This document shows, piece after piece, positions 2,995 to 37,752 of a stretch of 39,840 bases of DNA (position 1 is its first letter; the number at the start of each line of letters is the position of its first letter). The position numbers and the translations under genes are program-made. Location: positions 1 to 39,840 of the IMG/VR virus record IMGVR_UViG_3300032236_000566. The stretch is one strand, 5' to 3'. The notes beneath the pieces are model-generated. The model was not told the DNA's origin. It saw nothing but the letters and a program-made list of their open reading frames with translations, and did not search any database. The DNA comes from a virus.

Positions 2995-3131
2995 TGATAT
3001 TAACTTTGTTATGCGCCGTGATAGCGGGCATCTGTATCTTCGGAAGCGTGTTGGGTCTAATGATGGTTTCCCGGATCCGCGCACAATACTTTAAGCCTAC
3101 GGGTGGATGCGATTGTGGGTGCGACTGTTGA
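2994..3131 (+). CDS. Membrane microprotein with CxCxCxC-type tail, 45 aa
   Basis: ATG at 2994 (TAATG overlap). Residues 2-26 form one hydrophobic helix (LLCAVIAGICIFGSVLGLMM). A short basic stretch follows, and the protein ends GGCDCGCDC, with four cysteines in the last seven residues. The tail could bind a metal ion or form a disulphide or thiol patch at the membrane. Its last bases overlap the TTG start of the methyltransferase. A single helix plus Cys tail is unusual; function unknown. Confidence 0.6.
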   Translation: MILTLLCAVIAGICIFGSVLGLMMVSRIRAQYFKPTGGCDCGCDC

Positions 3132-3850
3132 AAGCCGTATCCCTGTTTGCTGGCGTAGGTGGATTTGACCTTGCATTGGAGCGCAACGGCGTAGAAGTCG
3201 TGGCTTCTGTAGAGATTGATAAGAACGCACGAAAGGTATTAGCCAAGCAATTTCCTAATTCAACTATTTTAGAGGATGTAAAAGATGTCACAGGAGAACA
3301 ACTCTTTAAGCTCGGATTTGATTCAAATGGAATTATTGTCGGGGGATTCCCCTGTCAAGACCTCAGCGTGGCTGGCAAGCGCGCTGGACTGGCTGGGGAT
3401 CGATCAGGACTCTTTTTTGAAATCGTTAGAATCCTTGAAGAAACGAAAGCCAAATTCTTCATACTCGAAAATGTCCCCGGTTTACTTTCAAGTAACAAAG
3501 GGCGAGATATGGGGACCATCATCGGAACGTTGGATGACATCGGGTATAGCGTCGCGTGGCGAGTGCTTGATGCTCAATACTTCGGAGTACCCCAACGCCG
3601 TCGTCGAATCTTCATTGTCGGATGTCTTGGAGACGACTGGCGAACACCTGCGGAAATACTCTCTATCGCAGAAGGCAGCACAAGGTATCTTGCGCAGATC
3701 CAGTCGAAAGGGAAAGACGCTTCCACCGGCACTTCAACAGGCACTAGAAGCAATAAGCGAATAGTTCACGAATTAACTGTTTCTGATTTAACAAAAGGAC
3801 AGGGTTCGCATCAAGCAGTTAAAGCAGGATTGCTACAGGTCGTTGATTAA
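3128..3850 (+). CDS. C5 cytosine DNA methyltransferase, catalytic half (motifs I-VIII)
   Basis: About 240 aa from a TTG at 3128 that overlaps the upstream stop; an in-frame ATG at 3107 would add seven residues. It shows SAM motif I (SLFAGVGGFDLA), motif IV with the catalytic Cys in GGFPCQDLS (about residue 76), motif VI ENVPG and motif VIII QRRRRIFIVG. The frame stops at 3850 before motifs IX and X, which lie in the next gene (start 3850, TAATG overlap). The enzyme is therefore encoded as two coupled polypeptides or by a frameshifted gene. Methylation would protect phage DNA from restriction. Within this gene a second frame (3285-3764) is also open. Confidence 0.88.
   Translation: MKAVSLFAGVGGFDLALERNGVEVVASVEIDKNARKVLAKQFPNSTILEDVKDVTGEQLFKLGFDSNGIIVGGFPCQDLSVAGKRAGLAGDRSGLFFEIVRILEETKAKFFILENVPGLLSSNKGRDMGTIIGTLDDIGYSVAWRVLDAQYFGVPQRRRRIFIVGCLGDDWRTPAEILSIAEGSTRYLAQIQSKGKDASTGTSTGTRSNKRIVHELTVSDLTKGQGSHQAVKAGLLQVVD
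3285..3764 (+). CDS. Overlapping +1-frame gene inside the methyltransferase, 159 aa
   Basis: An ATG-initiated frame of 159 codons lies entirely within the catalytic half of the methyltransferase, one base out of phase. It reads SSLSDVLETTGEHLRKYSLS and then GILRRSSRKGKTLPPAL. I recognise this as a widespread small phage protein pattern (SSLSxVLE ... YxLSxKAxxGILRRxxxRGKxLPxxL), usually annotated as hypothetical and found at Dcm-type genes. The same bases in the methyltransferase frame encode motif VIII (FGVPQRRRRIF), so both readings look constrained. Function unknown. The recognition is from memory; a homology search would settle it. Confidence 0.5.
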   Translation: MSQENNSLSSDLIQMELLSGDSPVKTSAWLASALDWLGIDQDSFLKSLESLKKRKPNSSYSKMSPVYFQVTKGEIWGPSSERWMTSGIASRGECLMLNTSEYPNAVVESSLSDVLETTGEHLRKYSLSQKAAQGILRRSSRKGKTLPPALQQALEAISE

Positions 3851-4368
3851 TGTGGTTTGTGAAAGCAAGGAGAGCTCAGAATGAATCAGATTTTGAGACA
3901 TGGCAACAGGGGGGAGTGGTGACTACTTTGAACGCGTTTGAAAACAACGGTGATGCAAGAGCGACTGTTCTTATTTTTTATGGAAACCGAGTAGATGATA
4001 TTCGTTTTCAAGGTAGCGTCATTAATACTTTGCAAGCTCGTATGGGAACAGGTGGAAACAATATGCCAATGGTTGCAATACCAATTCAAGATGGGCGAGA
4101 TATGGATAAGAAACAAAATGGTTTGGGAATAGGGACTGAAAACGATCCGTCTTACACCCTGGATCGCACAGGAGCACAAGCCGTTGCTTTACATTCGACT
4201 GTTCGCCGTTTAACTCCTGTTGAATGTGAGCGTTTGCAGGGCTTCCCGGATCAATGGACTGAGGGCCAGGCAGACACGCATCGCTATAAGCAAATGGGCA
4301 ATGCGGTTGCAGTTCCTTGTGTTGAATGGATAGTAGAAAGGTTGGTTAAAACCAATGCCAATATATGA
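3850..4368 (+). CDS. C5 cytosine DNA methyltransferase, recognition half (TRD, motifs IX-X)
   Basis: 172 aa starting at the ATG of TAATG at 3850. The N-terminal part (WFVKARRAQNESDFETW, then TTLNAF) matches the segment that follows motif VIII in single-chain phage Dcm enzymes. The middle probably carries the target-recognition region. The end has motif IX (RRLTPVECERLQGFPDQWT) and motif X (RYKQMGNAVAVPCVEWI). It lacks the catalytic Cys and SAM loop, so it must act with the preceding product. Natural two-chain C5 methyltransferases are known (M.AquI), so this may be functional. A sequencing or assembly error is the main alternative, although the start/stop overlap is a typical coupling signal. 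Confidence 0.85.
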   Translation: MWFVKARRAQNESDFETWQQGGVVTTLNAFENNGDARATVLIFYGNRVDDIRFQGSVINTLQARMGTGGNNMPMVAIPIQDGRDMDKKQNGLGIGTENDPSYTLDRTGAQAVALHSTVRRLTPVECERLQGFPDQWTEGQADTHRYKQMGNAVAVPCVEWIVERLVKTNANI

Positions 4369-6586: not shown

Positions 6587-6608
6587 CGGATCCACCGCGA
6601 CGGGTTTT
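6574..6608. terminator. Possible bidirectional terminator between converging operons
   Basis: AAAACCC (6574-6580) pairs with GGGTTTT (6602-6608) across a GC-rich 21-base loop, giving an A-run/T-run stem readable on both strands. It lies between the end of the plus operon (6406) and the stop of the minus-strand gene at 6607, which its right arm overlaps. The large loop makes it a weak candidate. Confidence 0.35.
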
Positions 6609-6891
6609 AGTTGTTTTGGTAGAAATCCACCGCCCAATCGTAGAGAGCACCCTCGGAAATTTCGATTTCCTCTTGGTCATTGAAAAAGTAAACGTTCATT
6701 TCGTCAACATCCAAATCGACCTGAATCCTCACGCCGTCGTTATCTGTAAAGAATAAGGACATGATGGAAAACCGATTAGGTCCCTGCTCGGCGTACAGAA
6801 TCGGGTTCGAATCGTCTCCTGCGTCGCGTTGCTCGTCTGTGATGGCTAGGAGTTGGGACTCCCGCTCCTTTATGAGTTCGTTCGTGTTCAT
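6607..6891 (-). CDS. Hypothetical acidic protein, 94 aa
   Basis: ATG at 6891 (reading leftward), preceded on this strand by GAAAGG. Further in-frame upstream codons run through the ribozyme and are not used. The protein is acidic with a beta-rich centre (NRFSIMSLFFTDNDGVRIQVDLDVDEMNVYFF) and ends in a helix (EGALYDWAVDFYQ). I recognise no family. It is the last gene of the minus-strand unit and is separated from the rest by a hammerhead ribozyme. Confidence 0.7.
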   Translation of the reverse strand: MNTNELIKERESQLLAITDEQRDAGDDSNPILYAEQGPNRFSIMSLFFTDNDGVRIQVDLDVDEMNVYFFNDQEEIEISEGALYDWAVDFYQNN

Positions 6892-6923
6892 GTTTTGCCT
6901 TTCATTCGTTGCCAATGTGCCGA

Positions 6924-6975
6924 GGCTCATCAGGTGACGCGATACGCCACGACCCCCCAAACGGGGGGTTTCGCC
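6924..6975 (-). ncRNA. Type II hammerhead ribozyme (HHR-2)
   Basis: On the minus strand the RNA begins right after the UAA stop of the gene ending at 6976: GGC (stem II, 3' arm), GAAA, stem III of six C:G pairs closed by A-U with a GUUU loop, UC as the cleavage-site dinucleotide, stem I (GUGGCG with CGUCAC, one G-U pair, loop UAUCG), the invariant CUGAUGA, then GCC completing stem II. The A of the stop and the U at 6923 add one more pair. All core nucleotides of the hammerhead are present. Predicted self-cleavage is 3' of the C at 6951. The order makes stem II the open helix (type II). Confidence 0.9.
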
Positions 6976-7143
6976 TTAGTTATGAACCCAACGCAGGGAG
7001 CACTCCCGCCCTTCTGCGATTGGGTGGCAGTTGTATTCCTCGCGGTGGTGGGTCAAAAAGAAATGAACCGCGAACCCTGCAAGGACTAACCCCGCAAGAA
7101 TCAAAAGAGCGCGGGCGCGCTTTCCTCGTTTTGTAAGTTTCAT
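6976..7143 (-). CDS. Small membrane protein, 55 aa
   Basis: ATG at 7143 overlaps the stop of the preceding gene (TAATG). A basic N-terminus (KLTKRGKRAR) is followed by one hydrophobic helix (ALLILAGLVLAGFAVHFFL) and a short tail with two Cys (NCHPIAEGREC). The positive-inside rule places the tail outside the membrane. Its UAA is immediately followed by hammerhead ribozyme HHR-2. Function unknown. Confidence 0.65.
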   Translation of the reverse strand: MKLTKRGKRARALLILAGLVLAGFAVHFFLTHHREEYNCHPIAEGRECSLRWVHN

Positions 7144-7709
7144 TAGTTAAACATCTCTTTCTTGGTTGTGTAGGACTTGCAAGAGTAGAAATCGATTCCC
7201 AAATCGTCACGCAAACGCCACAGGGCGCGGTTCTTGTATTCGTCGGAAACAAAACCGAGCGAGATAAGTTCCTGCATCGCTACGGTTTCGAAGTGGTTTC
7301 CGTAGCCATATTGGAAAGGCAAAACGGCGACGATGTGACCATCTACCCAAACGCGGGCAGAAAAATAAGAATTTCCCCCTGATTTGTCGAACCACTCGCG
7401 AGCCTCAACAAACACAGAACGGGAAATCTTTTTAGATAAAGCATCGCGCACCAAATCAACGGCGCGAGATGAAAAGCCCCCGATGTTATACGAAACGATT
7501 TCCGGATCTTTGGGAGTTCCCAACTCGTAACGCTTCCAATCGTAAACAGTCGCGATAGTTCCGTCGGCGAATTGGATTCCCCACTCAATCGTTACCTTAT
7601 CGCCCTCGCCGTATTGTGTGGGTTCGCCAAATGCTTTTGTAAGTTCGGCGCGTGTTGTTTCGATGTGACCTTGCAACGATGTTCCGCTTGTTTCTGTTGC
7701 TGTTTTCAT
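7143..7709 (-). CDS. Hypothetical protein, 188 aa (phage/plasmid family)
   Basis: Starts MKTATETSGTSLQGHIETTR and contains LTKAFGEPTQYGEGDKVTIEWGIQFADGT followed by TIYDWK-like ATVYDWKRYELGTP. I associate this pattern (LQGyI-x-A/T-TR ... FG-P ... KvTxeW-x-x-x-F-D/A-DGT-x-AT-x-Y-DWK-x-Y) with a recurring hypothetical family of phages and plasmids. The C-terminal half (FETVAMQELISLGF, NRALWRLRDDLGIDF) looks like a second small domain. It follows hammerhead HHR-1 and is coupled to the membrane-protein gene downstream. No biochemical role is known to me. Confidence 0.75.
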   Translation of the reverse strand: MKTATETSGTSLQGHIETTRAELTKAFGEPTQYGEGDKVTIEWGIQFADGTIATVYDWKRYELGTPKDPEIVSYNIGGFSSRAVDLVRDALSKKISRSVFVEAREWFDKSGGNSYFSARVWVDGHIVAVLPFQYGYGNHFETVAMQELISLGFVSDEYKNRALWRLRDDLGIDFYSCKSYTTKKEMFN

Positions 7710-7749
7710 TTTTTCCCTTTTCTATTTTTGATCGATGCTGATTTGCTTA

Positions 7750-7802
7750 GGCTCATCAGTTGGCGCACTTACGCCAAGACACCCCCGAAGGGGTGTTTCG
7801 CC
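7750..7802 (-). ncRNA. Type II hammerhead ribozyme (HHR-1)
   Basis: Minus-strand RNA starting directly after the UAA of the gene ending at 7803. In order: GGC (stem II 3' arm), GAAA, stem III of seven pairs (ACACCCC with GGGGUGU, UUCG tetraloop), C at the cleavage site (GUC type), stem I (UUGGCG with CGCCAA, loop UAAGUG), invariant CUGAUGA, and GCC closing stem II, extended by an A-U pair that uses the stop codon. Every conserved hammerhead core base is present and all three stems pair. Predicted cleavage is 3' of the C complementary to 7778. The loops and stem I differ from HHR-2 while the core is identical. Confidence 0.93.
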
Positions 7803-8099
7803 TTATTTGTTGATGTAGTTGCGAACATCTAGCGCGATTTGTTGCGCCGTTTGTTTCTCGTCATACTGCGCGAGTTCGTGGGAATAATCGTCTTTTGTGT
7901 AAACGCTCGCGCCGTACAAATTGGCGTAGATGTAATGCTCGGCGTTCAGTTCCACATAGGCGCACATCGTAAAACCGCCCGTTTGCTCGCTTGTGGCTTT
8001 AATTCCCAAATCGGTAAGGGCTTTACATAGGTCGTCGATGCCCTGCTCTGCTGATGCTTCGCGTACTCGTTCGATGTAGTAGTCGGCGTATGTGCTCAT
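7803..8099 (-). CDS. Hypothetical protein, 98 aa
   Basis: The start at 8099 overlaps the stop of the preceding gene (TAATG). The sequence is helical at both ends (YADYYIERVREASAEQGIDDL; KQTAQQIALDVRNYIN) with beta-like segments between (FTMCAYVELNAEHYIYANLYG). It does not match a family I can name. The stop is followed at once by hammerhead HHR-1. Confidence 0.7.
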   Translation of the reverse strand: MSTYADYYIERVREASAEQGIDDLCKALTDLGIKATSEQTGGFTMCAYVELNAEHYIYANLYGASVYTKDDYSHELAQYDEKQTAQQIALDVRNYINK

Positions 8100-8644
8100 T
8101 ACTTGCCCGCCTTCTCAATATCGGCAACGCAATCCCCGCAAGTATTGCCCCAAGGGAGAATGATTCGCCCCTTGTCTAACTCCTTAATCTCTTTTCCGCA
8201 GAGTTGGCAATCGACACCAACGGGATTTGGCTCAAAGTTCTTTGGGTTCTCGTCGCAGTTGTCCCAATGATTTTGTTGCTCGTTCTTGTTGTACAACTGA
8301 CCACAAGCACCGCAAGAAACTTCCATGAACTCCGCCCAAACATCGGTTTCTTCTATGCCTTCGTACAAACTCGAAAGATAATCCAAGGCATATTCTGCGC
8401 CGTCGTTGTAGCCCTCTTGGTATGGCTTGCCCATGCTCTTGAGTAATTCAAGAACCATCGCGAGCGCGTCAGAGTGTCCCTCGTTGTATTTGCGGTCGAG
8501 AGTGTCCTCATATTCTTCGGAGTAGTTTTCGTCGTTGTCGTACATTCCTTGCGCATCTGTCCACGCTTTGAAACTTTCGGCGTGTGCTTGCGTAACCTTT
8601 TCGATTACTTGCTCAAGGTTTGGGGTGTTGTCTGCTGTTTCCAT
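8099..8644 (-). CDS. Hypothetical protein with zinc-ribbon motifs, 181 aa
   Basis: The ATG at 8644 is preceded on this strand by AAAGGA at a spacing of seven bases; an in-frame ATG 13 codons upstream has no such site. The N-terminal two thirds are acidic and helical (HAESFKAWTDAQG, EEYEDTLDRKYNEGHSDALA). The C-terminal part has metal-binding pairs CGAC ... HWDNC and CQLC ... CGDC. It is the first gene of the minus-strand unit. A nucleic-acid-binding role is possible but not demonstrated. Confidence 0.75.
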   Translation of the reverse strand: METADNTPNLEQVIEKVTQAHAESFKAWTDAQGMYDNDENYSEEYEDTLDRKYNEGHSDALAMVLELLKSMGKPYQEGYNDGAEYALDYLSSLYEGIEETDVWAEFMEVSCGACGQLYNKNEQQNHWDNCDENPKNFEPNPVGVDCQLCGKEIKELDKGRIILPWGNTCGDCVADIEKAGK

Positions 8645-8703
8645 TCCCGGATCCTTTGCTGTATTGGGTGGGACTCTCCCCACCGCTTCACCCCAAAGCG
8701 TAA

Positions 8704-9081: not shown

Positions 9082-9811
9082 CTGCGGTTCTCACTAGTGC
9101 GCAGTCATCAAGAGAGGTCGCACTTGTCTCCTCTTTTTATCTAGTCAGGGGGTGAGGATTCTCCATCGGGTCAGGCTTTGGATGTGCGCCCCTGTGTTGA
9201 TGCTCGGCTTTCTCTTTTGTCTGTTATATGGGTTGCTTAGACATTTGGCTTGCTTTTGTCTAGCTTTGACGGGGGATGTGCCTTCGACCCTGCGCGCCGA
9301 CCCTTTTCATATCACCATACGAACTATATGTCATCAGCGTAATGTAACTACGCAATGAGATGGATCAGCTTGGCTTTTATGACCGGGTTCAAGATTATTC
9401 GTGATGTTCTAAAACCATAAGATTAGGTGAGCAGTTTACTTAGACGTGCTCAGGTCATTTTCTCTGGCCGAGAGAACTTAAGGCTAGCGATCCAGAATTA
9501 GTTACGCAACCCTATCTGAAGATATGTCTTACCCCCACGGGGGTTATCTCGTTTTACATAAATGATGATTTTGTCTAATGACTGTAAGGAGACACGAAAT
9601 TACAGTAACCATCATTCTCGCCGTTTCAGGTGTTCTATCGTAACCTGCGGGGGACTTCTACCAAGGGTTGCCAAACGCTATTTGGACATCACGAATTTTC
9701 CCCATCTAACGGGTCGCTACCAGAGTGAGTGGTAGGTACGGTTTTTTACATGGTTTGCCGTACAGCCATTATTAAGTTTTTGTGTTTCACCACGACTTCC
9801 CCGTTCGTGGT
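9082..9811 (+). ncRNA. Large structured RNA candidate (GOLLD/ROOL-like)
   Basis: About 730 bases without a credible gene but full of paired elements. Hairpins (arms 5 bp or more) lie at 9082-9104, 9110-9135, 9238-9262, 9308-9330, 9337-9353, 9428-9452, 9460-9476, 9528-9543, 9581-9606, 9671-9685, 9717-9735, 9736-9763 and 9789-9811. Two perfect long-range helices join distant parts: 9397-9407 with 9686-9696 (11 bp) and 9506-9513 with 9664-9671 (8 bp); the second encloses the 9528 and 9581 hairpins. A U-G extension of the 11-bp helix is possible only on the plus strand. Known ornate phage RNAs (GOLLD, first seen in lake metagenomes, and ROOL) have this size and context. Membership is inferred, and the ends and strand are approximate. 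Confidence 0.5.
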
Positions 9812-10742: not shown

Positions 10743-12621
10743 TAGCAACAAACGAATTGATGACACGCGTTGGCGCAAATATGCCAAGGCTGTGAGCGAA
10801 GGTCACTCGCAAAGAACGGCAGCGCAGATGGCTGGCATCAGCTACTCATCTGTCATGCGTCAATTGCCTGTTCCGACTTCTCGGCTCAACCGCATCCTTG
10901 GCGAGTTTGGTTTTGAGAACGCAGGTGTCTTTGATCCAGAAAAGGTTAAGGGCGATGCGGCTAGAGCATTGGAAGATTTCGGTTACTTCCGTGAGCGATA
11001 CTTTGCCCGCTCTACTTCGCCATGGGTGGAAGAAGCCGCATACAAAATGCTTGAGTTGGCTGCCACTCCACAAAAAGAATATGTTGTTATTAACTGTCCA
11101 CCGGGTGTTGGTAAGTCAACAACGTGGTCGCACGATTTTCCTGTATGGCTAGCGGTGCGCGATAGATCCCGCCGTACCATGATTGGTTCTCGCACAGCAG
11201 GACAGGCGACAAAATACACAGGTCGTATTCGCAGAACTTTTGAACGCCAAACTCCCATGAAGGCTGACCCGGTGTTGTTCGAAAAGGGTTTAGCCAAAGA
11301 TGCAGTTTCTACTTTGATTGCAGATTACGGTCGCTTCAAACCTTCCAACTCTGACCTATGGCGATTGGAAGAATTTATCTTGGCGCAGGATGGTGGCGTA
11401 GCCATCGATGACAAGGAAGCAAACTTTGTTGCCTACGGTATGGACTCAGGTTTCTTGGGTGGTCGTTTCGATACTGTTATTTGGGATGACCTTGTAGATA
11501 AGACAAACATCCGTACTGCCGAATCGCGTGAGACTTTGATTAATTGGTGGGAAACAGAAGCCGAAACTCGTCTTGATCCAGGTGGACTTCTTATCCTTCA
11601 GGGACAGAGAATGGCAAGCGACGACTTGTATCGCTACGCGCTTAACCTTGTGGATTGGTCAGAAGAATTTGAGGAAAAGCCTGAATTAGCTCCAAAGAAA
11701 TATCACCATATTGTGTACAAAGCTCACTATGACGATATTTGCACAGCCGATAAAACCAACGGCGGGCATAAGGGCAATTACCCATACGGCTGTTTGCTAG
11801 ACGAATACCGTTTGCCATGGCGTGAACTTGTCCGTATCAAAAAAAATCGTTTGGATCGATTCCAAACTTTGTATCAGCAAGAAGATGTTGATAAGGCAGC
11901 ATCACTTGTTAACCCAATTTGGATTGACGGCGGTATAGACGAAGAAGGAATCTCACACCAAGGGTGTTGGGATGACCGGGTTCTTGGTCGTTGGCCAGAC
12001 GGAATCAACGCATCCTCAGTTGTAACTGCCGACCCATCGCCTACAAAGTTTTGGGCTGTTCAATGGTGGGCATACGATGCCGATACTCAGATGCAACATT
12101 TGATTGACCTAGTGCGCTCGCCTATGGATGCCCCTGATTTCTTGGACTACAACCAAGATAGCCGTACCTATACGGGCTTGCTTGAAGAATGGTGGCAACG
12201 CTCTAACGAAAAAGGTCATCCGTTTACCCACTTGATTGTGGAAGCAAACGCGGCTCAACGCTTTATGTTGCAGTACGACCACTTCAAACGGTGGGCTGCT
12301 ATTCGAAATGTGAGCTTGATCCCCCATCAAACCAACCGCAATAAGTCTGACGAAAGTTATGGCGTACAAACTCTTGCCCCACACTACAAAGCAGGGCGCG
12401 TTCGCTTTCCCGGATCCGACTTGCTTGGCTCAAAGGCAACAATTAAGCCGATGGTTAAAGAACTTGTGCAATGGCCAGAAGGACAAACCGACGATACGGT
12501 TATGGCGCATTGGTTTTTAATTTGGAACGCACCTAACTTGTTCCATGCCGGTATGGATAAGCCGCCTACATTCCAACGACCTACTTGGATGAAGGAACAT
12601 ACGAGCCGTTGGCGCAGGTGA
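10735..12621 (+). CDS. terL: Terminase large subunit
   Basis: 628 aa. The ATPase domain has Walker A CPPGVGKST (121-129) and Walker B TVIWDD (247-252). The nuclease domain has acidic residues in TADPSPTKFW (Asp433), LIVEANAA (Glu503) and TDDTVMAHW (Asp586/587). The first 45 residues form a helix-turn-helix (SEGHSQRTAAQMAGISYSSVMRQL) of the kind found in small terminase subunits, so DNA recognition may be fused here. It cuts concatemers and pumps DNA into the prohead through the portal encoded just downstream. The 65-base gap after it holds the only break before the head genes. Confidence 0.95.
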   Translation: MTNSNKRIDDTRWRKYAKAVSEGHSQRTAAQMAGISYSSVMRQLPVPTSRLNRILGEFGFENAGVFDPEKVKGDAARALEDFGYFRERYFARSTSPWVEEAAYKMLELAATPQKEYVVINCPPGVGKSTTWSHDFPVWLAVRDRSRRTMIGSRTAGQATKYTGRIRRTFERQTPMKADPVLFEKGLAKDAVSTLIADYGRFKPSNSDLWRLEEFILAQDGGVAIDDKEANFVAYGMDSGFLGGRFDTVIWDDLVDKTNIRTAESRETLINWWETEAETRLDPGGLLILQGQRMASDDLYRYALNLVDWSEEFEEKPELAPKKYHHIVYKAHYDDICTADKTNGGHKGNYPYGCLLDEYRLPWRELVRIKKNRLDRFQTLYQQEDVDKAASLVNPIWIDGGIDEEGISHQGCWDDRVLGRWPDGINASSVVTADPSPTKFWAVQWWAYDADTQMQHLIDLVRSPMDAPDFLDYNQDSRTYTGLLEEWWQRSNEKGHPFTHLIVEANAAQRFMLQYDHFKRWAAIRNVSLIPHQTNRNKSDESYGVQTLAPHYKAGRVRFPGSDLLGSKATIKPMVKELVQWPEGQTDDTVMAHWFLIWNAPNLFHAGMDKPPTFQRPTWMKEHTSRWRR

Positions 12622-37188: not shown

Positions 37189-37752
37189 CTACTCTGCTTG
37201 GGTGAGGACATCTATGTTCCCACCTGAGTACGCGTCATAGCGGATCGATACAGTAATTGCTTTCTTAAGCAATTCTTCTGCGTCATACACATTGGAAACT
37301 TTGTGCGCTTCTGCCATGCCCAAAGCACCAAGCGCATACTTACCGCCTGATCCAGCAATGTAGATTCCCATGCGACAGCGTTCCCATGAGTAGTCACCGG
37401 CTACTGAGTACAACTTTCCCCTGATGGCTACGACTAGTTCGCTGTCGTTCTCAGCTACATCTCCATCGTCTTTCATATCGTATCCCGCAGCAATAAATGC
37501 TTTACGCATGGATGGAATGAAAGCCTGAGTCATGTAGTGGTCGGTAGTGCGATGGCGATAAGCAGGTGCTTTCCATCCAAACTGAAGGATGTTGATACCG
37601 CGAACTGATCCAGCACCCGCAATGAGTGTCGGTCCATTTCTAAATATCTTGCCCGTGACAATCTGCATCGTAAAACCTGAATCATCGCTCGCTTGGCTGT
37701 CTGCGCCTATGGCACACCAGCCCTTTCCTTGGATGGCTGCGAGTGTTGTCAT
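37189..37752 (-). CDS. Proteasome beta-like Ntn hydrolase, 187 aa
   Basis: Starts MTTLAAIQGKGWCAIGADSQ. After Met removal, Thr1 would be the nucleophile; Asp17 (ADS), a lysine at mature position 34 (GKIF) and AGAG match the T1/D17/K33/G47 landmarks of proteasome beta and HslV subunits. Later YIAGSGGKYALGALG and SGGNIDVLTQ match the conserved SGG-type ends of the fold. There is no propeptide. It is the only minus-strand gene in this part of the genome. It may form a protease ring for virion maturation or host takeover, or hydrolyse something else. Confidence 0.8.
   Translation of the reverse strand: MTTLAAIQGKGWCAIGADSQASDDSGFTMQIVTGKIFRNGPTLIAGAGSVRGINILQFGWKAPAYRHRTTDHYMTQAFIPSMRKAFIAAGYDMKDDGDVAENDSELVVAIRGKLYSVAGDYSWERCRMGIYIAGSGGKYALGALGMAEAHKVSNVYDAEELLKKAITVSIRYDAYSGGNIDVLTQAE

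Follow-up and report, generated by a model that had tools for sequence, protein, structure and literature searches.

Type II hammerhead ribozymes of bacteria and phages (RF02276) were described by Perreault et al. 2011 (PMC3088659), who reported clustered phage copies of varying identity flanking genes and already proposed that they process long transcripts. The tested clusters cleaved in vitro, one set also cleaved in E. coli, and 4 of 18 consensus-conforming hammerheads were inactive in vitro. A pseudoknot between loop I and the tail characterizes the common form, without being obligatory for the class. The role of prokaryotic hammerheads was considered an open question in a 2017 review (PMC6155905). 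In selective RNA processing and stabilization, known from bacterial operons (PMC4423207), cuts between genes and a stable stem-loop carried by the upstream message together give unequal amounts from one operon; there, transcript abundance correlates with 3'-terminal stem-loops at the processing sites. RNase P cuts structured sites in some polycistronic mRNAs and phage RNAs (review, PMC11143913), and in designed laboratory ribozymes competing flanking hairpins can block assembly in vivo, so that a mutually exclusive structure of the neighbouring strand controls assembly (PMC2817708).

The present study concerns two hammerheads, HHR-1 and HHR-2, in a complete virus record of 39,840 bases from an uncultivated phage, which was analysed as a whole and is referred to below as the window. 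They share the core and the open stem II of the described class and are likewise clustered around phage genes with varying identity, but neither has an obvious loop I-tail pseudoknot. The copies found here abut stop codons, whereas the terms "stop codon" and "ribosome" never occur in the main text of PMC3088659, and some relatives differ from the published set in having a tail complementary to CUGANGA. The cuts of PMC4423207 are mapped sites of a cellular operon, while in the present case a single self-cleaving phage RNA supplies both the hairpins and the predicted cut. Similarly, the ribozymes of PMC2817708 were designed as folding probes, whereas the anti-core tails reported here occur in nature and show covariation with the core. 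In contrast to RNase P processing, hammerheads need no protein; the tRNA-like junction elements of sister phages would fit such processing and are candidate substrates.

Type II membership is ordinary in itself, and what is new is the rule of placement behind stop codons, the core-complementary tail with its covariation and the proposed exchange of elements at the same junctions. We found no description of flush placement at stop codons, of a covarying anti-core tail or of exchange with tRNA-like elements in the searchable literature, which leaves out most subscription journals. The role of hammerheads is made testable by a ribozyme start that coincides with the translation stop, by a predicted cut that would cap both messages with hairpins, and by a covarying, self-disarming sequence in a subset.

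Two type II hammerheads in a five-gene cassette

The preliminary description had read a type II hammerhead from positions 7750-7802 of the minus strand, and its elements are present exactly as it gave them. HHR-1 (7749..7803, minus strand, as are all features of the cassette) consists of GGC (7802-7800), GAA (7799-7797), stem III ACACCCC/GGGGUGU of 7 bp closed by UUCG (7796-7790 with 7785-7779), stem I UUGGCG/CGCCAA of 6 bp (7777-7772 with 7765-7760; 6-7 bp in the full element), CUGAUGA (7759-7753) and GCC (7752-7750). HHR-2 (6923..6976) has stem III ACCCCCC/GGGGGGU and stem I GUGGCG/CGUCAC. In both, the last A of the upstream UAA pairs with the U after GCC, which results in a stem II of four pairs; in HHR-1 (AGGC/GCCU) the fourth pair is A7803-U7749. 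The CUGANGA and GAAA core parts stand in the right order in both copies. The nucleotide after the final U of stem III is a C, in agreement with the H17 (not G) rule, at 7779-7778 (UC) in HHR-1 and at 6952-6951 (UC) in HHR-2. Cleavage is thus predicted 3' of C7778 (7777..7778), where hammerhead anatomy places it and where the earlier reading had put it, and 3' of C6951.

The three stems of HHR-1 constitute both the MFE and the centroid fold (MFE -26.5 kcal/mol, z = -3.2), and the type II topology, with stems I and III loop-closed and stem II open, was obtained from these folds, from a hammerhead descriptor and from the Rfam alignment. The covariance-model check proposed in the preliminary description gave an end-to-end alignment of RF02276 with HHR-1 at 36.8 bits, yet 0.2 bits under the gathering score of 37, which is a curation threshold and not a biochemical feature. 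The E-values were 7.6e-6 in 601 nt, 5e-4 when the window was compared with all families and 1.2e-7 when its own record was searched with this family only; HHR-2 scored 30.4 bits (E 5.6e-6, single-family search). Both copies being under the cut-off, an Rfam scan of the window at the gathering threshold returned no match, and therefore the E-value mode is needed. The descriptor, which is loose (minimum 4 bp for stems I and III, 2 bp for stem II), matched exactly twice in the real window, at HHR-1 and HHR-2, and in none of 600 Markov-shuffled windows. By its anatomy, HHR-1 is supported as a genuine type II hammerhead on all testable sequence and structure criteria; the identification first proposed is borne out by the Rfam score, the fold and the paired changes in syntenic homologues described below.

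A further CTGATGA at 9337 (minus strand) was ruled out as a hammerhead, lacking the GAAA-stem III part and being absent from the descriptor output. A loop I-tail pseudoknot of at least 4 Watson-Crick bp was found neither in HHR-2 by computation nor in HHR-1 by inspection, and was rejected as an explanation for the two copies.

HHR-1 and HHR-2 split a cassette of five minus-strand genes into A-B, C-D and E. Gene A (8099..8644, 181 aa, with an in-frame GTG start also at 8683), gene B (7803..8099, 98 aa), gene C (7143..7709, 188 aa, phrog_6246) and gene E (6607..6891, 94 aa) are of unknown function and had no Pfam match, and gene D (6976..7143, 55 aa, beginning MKLTKRGKR...) contains a hydrophobic stretch. 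The PHROG matches in the cassette are families of unknown function, the longer ORF of gene A matching weakly. The TAA of gene B ends at 7803 and that of gene D at 6976, each ribozyme starting one base past the stop codon. The next start codons follow about 30-40 nt past stem II, with AAGGG- or AAAGG-like sites just ahead of them. The earlier statement that HHR-1 lies after a minus-strand gene was thus correct as far as it went, as the ribozyme directly abuts the stop codon, but it had missed the second copy, the cassette and the systematic nature of the placement.

Other genes of the window include those for a terminase, a capsid protein, a dNMP kinase, SSB, RecT and a LysM-type protein. An inverted repeat at 6612-6572 (minus strand; AAAACCCG...CGGGGTTTT) overlaps the end of gene E and is a possible end of the cassette transcript. 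A C5 cytosine methylase is divided between two adjacent plus-strand ORFs, 3107-3850 and 3850-4368, which hold its N- and C-terminal parts (PF00145), and an ORF at 37189-37752 (minus strand) weakly matches a proteasome subunit (PF00227, E 2e-6), which is unusual for a phage.

Judging from this layout, HHR-1 and HHR-2 very probably cut the cassette transcript at the gene junctions into separate messages for A-B, C-D and E. Genes A-E would be transcribed as one RNA, in which each hammerhead would fold on emerging and cut after C7778 or C6951, presumably during transcription. Hammerhead self-cleavage leaves a 2',3'-cyclic phosphate and a 5'-OH. As the type II hairpins on both sides of the cut are closed, stem III would form a hairpin at the end of the upstream message, and the downstream message would begin with the 5'-OH, followed by the hairpin of stem I. 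With both new ends capped by hairpins, each message could have its own lifetime.

Placement directly behind stop codons

Pattern scans of IMG/VR, filtered by the descriptor, which is blind to tail and stop codon, yielded 383 distinct hammerheads. In 203 of the 313 (65%) that had a usable upstream ORF of at least 60 aa, the upstream stop codon ended -1 to +5 nt from the ribozyme, compared with 0.3-3% for decoy anchors placed 60-120 nt away, and the result was repeated in two held-out sets (51/74 and 87/124). These data show that flush placement at the stop codon is a systematic rule in phage hammerheads. All copies lay on one strand in each of the 109 loci with two or more copies, the maximum being nine per locus. 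The predicted 3' cleavage products folded as expected, and a loop I-tail pseudoknot was present in 77 of 166 surveyed copies against 37 expected from tail swapping.

The stop codon lies against stem II, and its last base can pair into that stem. A ribosome terminating there would therefore sit over GGCGAAA and keep the ribozyme open, so that cleavage would follow ribosome release. Formation of stem II probably has to await this release at the abutting stop codon.

The close spacing could come from genome compactness alone, the hammerheads being active and merely packed tightly among phage genes without any coupling to the ribosome. This explanation is plausible, if somewhat short of probable. 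It draws on the downstream side, which is tight too, with the next start and its ribosome-binding site at a median of 26 nt (quartiles 21-31), and on a spacing that varies from -1 to +5, with wider offsets in a minority of cases, notably those of the Streptomyces-phage group (17, 28 and 42-45). Compactness fits less well with the sharp mode of the offset at 0 and with the rarity of ORFs that run into the ribozyme beyond -1 (only 11 of 313), even though the core itself has usable stop codons.

Long single-strand arrays were seen at several loci, with nine copies each in L250 and L085, eight each in L094 and L022, and seven in L061. L061 and L063 have matches among Streptomyces phages, Sentinel and Diane for example. 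The annotation of Streptomyces phage Diane agrees with the rule, gp77, for instance, ending at 11173 and the hammerhead starting at 11171 (L063), and the features listed for that stretch include no hammerhead. The hammerhead at L063:11519-11574 contains the annotated start of gp78 (locus 11525), and this start codon is therefore probably misannotated. Cultured, named phages with unannotated arrays, of which Diane is an example, open the way to experiments.

A tail that covaries with the ribozyme core

Folding of the 3' product expected from HHR-1 cleavage pairs the CUGAU of the core with a tail AUCAG (7738..7742, minus strand), a weak anti-core of 5 Watson-Crick bp (-3.6 kcal/mol, against -3.8 kcal/mol for stem II). 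HHR-2 has the tail CAUUGG (6912..6917, minus strand), a weak, G-U-containing complement of CUGAUG (-1.6 against -3.2 kcal/mol), and the homologue of HHR-1 in the related phage L077 has no anti-core tail. These copies led us to a sub-class defined by a tail that lies within about 20 nt and is the complement of 6-7 nt of the CUGANGA in the same ribozyme; HHR-1, with 5 bp, and HHR-2, with its G-U helix, themselves fall outside this definition.

Among hammerheads with a small loop I, the tail was complementary to at least 5 nt of the ribozyme's own CUGANGA in 23 of 87, 14 of 44 and 18 of 67 copies, compared with 7, 2 and 2 in the control, the next 28 nt; the first of the three sets had suggested the idea and the other two were held out. 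Position N7 of the core is variable, which allows covariation to be tested: where N7 was not U, 13 of 48 small-loop tails matched their own core and none matched a U7 core. A targeted scan validated by the descriptor gave 17 U7-A and 18 C7-G combinations with no mismatch (Fisher 2e-10). In the pooled loci, CUGAUGA occurred with (U)CAUCAG 30 times and CUGACGA with (U)CGUCAG 23 times, again without mismatch, over 50 contigs and five stem II sequences. The counts are inflated by related sequences; the changes nevertheless recur in different backgrounds, and in two copies of L370 that are 89% alike, N7 and the tail changed together. The tail hairpin was stronger than stem II in 35 of 35 cases (median -7.8 against -2.3 kcal/mol, by a nearest-neighbour model without tertiary contacts and Mg2+). 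A single pattern scan of bacterial genomes gave 38 loci with no valid hammerhead among them. The covarying tail is natural evidence for regulated, or one-way, self-cleavage.

We tentatively suggest, as a possible reading, that a sub-class of phage type II hammerheads acts as a timed switch, in which a tail behind stem II (UCN'UCAG) disarms CUGANGA and the abutting ribosome can decide the outcome, with mini-tRNA-like elements being interchangeable with such ribozymes at operon junctions. As pairing of the tail with the whole of CUGANGA is favoured over stem II once the tail is transcribed, cutting would be confined to a short window of transcription; the RNA would cut then or never, and the ribosome on the abutting stop codon could decide which. 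The tail would subsequently either lock the cleaved product or switch off RNAs that were not cut in time.

Quasi-palindrome correction by template switching is a generally known process, and during replication it could perfect an imperfect inverted repeat and copy core changes into the tail, producing the same matched double changes by mutation without selection. We regard this origin as unlikely. The tail recurs across a wide variety of ribozymes, whose stem II sequences are of five kinds, and the loop of the anti-core hairpin is usually the stem II strand itself. The same inverted-repeat pattern without a hammerhead is not strict (15 mismatches in 44), and the process would need to spare most of the large-loop class.

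The same junctions in related phages

A related phage that carries hammerheads, L077 (the same contig as L405), has a terminase 84% identical to that of the window phage; neither L077 nor L370 matched catalogued phages. Its gene order is homologues of A and B, a hammerhead, three ORFs, a hammerhead corresponding to HHR-2, and another gene. None of the three ORFs is a homologue of gene C, so the same layout, with the hammerhead behind a stop and ahead of a start, encloses different genes from those in the window. The first hammerhead has the same stem I as HHR-1. Between HHR-2 and its counterpart, three stem I pairs have changed and all remain paired (G-U to G-C, C-G to G-C and G-C to A-U), and both homologues have lost whole pairs from stem III (from 7 to 5 bp in that of HHR-2). 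All catalytic nucleotides are intact in the four ribozymes while the stems vary, and by this sequence comparison the structure is conserved beyond the sequence. Homologues of gene C occur on further hammerhead contigs, namely L082, in which the ribozyme is directly upstream of gene C, L114, L117, L123 and L124, which suggests that ribozyme-bounded genes may move as units.

Among the terminase relatives whose cassette region was compared, hammerheads occurred only in L077/L405. Six sister-phage loci gave no Rfam match at the gathering threshold, and relaxed hammerhead criteria gave one isolated match in a different place, so that at this sensitivity the sister-phage junctions are without hammerheads. 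Other structured elements were found there instead. L399 keeps genes B, C and D, and its HHR-1 junction holds a tRNA-like element (L399:7960-7864, minus strand) whose acceptor-like stem encloses a T-arm (GGTTCGAATCC). Comparable elements, about 42-55 nt long, are located shortly past the stop codon at junctions of L400 (7049-6950), L412 (7819-7722) and L395 (7920-7821 and 7182-7081), all three on the minus strand, and of L409. They comprise an acceptor-like stem, a linker often with GG and a T-arm with a TTCRANY-like loop, without an anticodon arm, and are recognised by neither Rfam nor ARAGORN. At the HHR-2 junction, sister phages have long bulged hairpins directly behind the stop of a small MKLTKRGKR-type ORF (L398:5111-5028, L399:7093-7014, L400:6371-6286, L404:6816-6739 and L412:7164-7060, minus strand), which could be another undescribed processing element. 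Given these other structures in sister phages, the conserved feature may be processing at the junction, with the cutting device, hammerhead or tRNA-like, being exchanged.

These non-hammerhead hairpins at the same junctions, together with a plus-strand terminator-like match that overlies stem III, would also suit a role of HHR-1 and HHR-2 mainly as stability elements, either hairpins or transcription barriers, with cleavage incidental or absent. That role is improbable, since CUGAUGA and GAAA would be superfluous in a plain hairpin and the catalytic nucleotides are intact in both copies and both homologues while the stems vary. A chance match, for which only the Rfam score 0.2 bits under the curated cut-off speaks, has a negligible probability in view of the shuffled windows (0/600), the two copies in one cassette and the syntenic homologues with paired changes, in line with the preliminary description, which had considered a chance origin very unlikely.

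Similar tRNA-like elements were also seen in L278, L379, L381 and L253. In L395, L399, L409 and L412, each tRNA-like element is followed by a second hairpin with the common loop GGATCGGC (e.g. CTAGGGGGATCGGCTCTCTAG).
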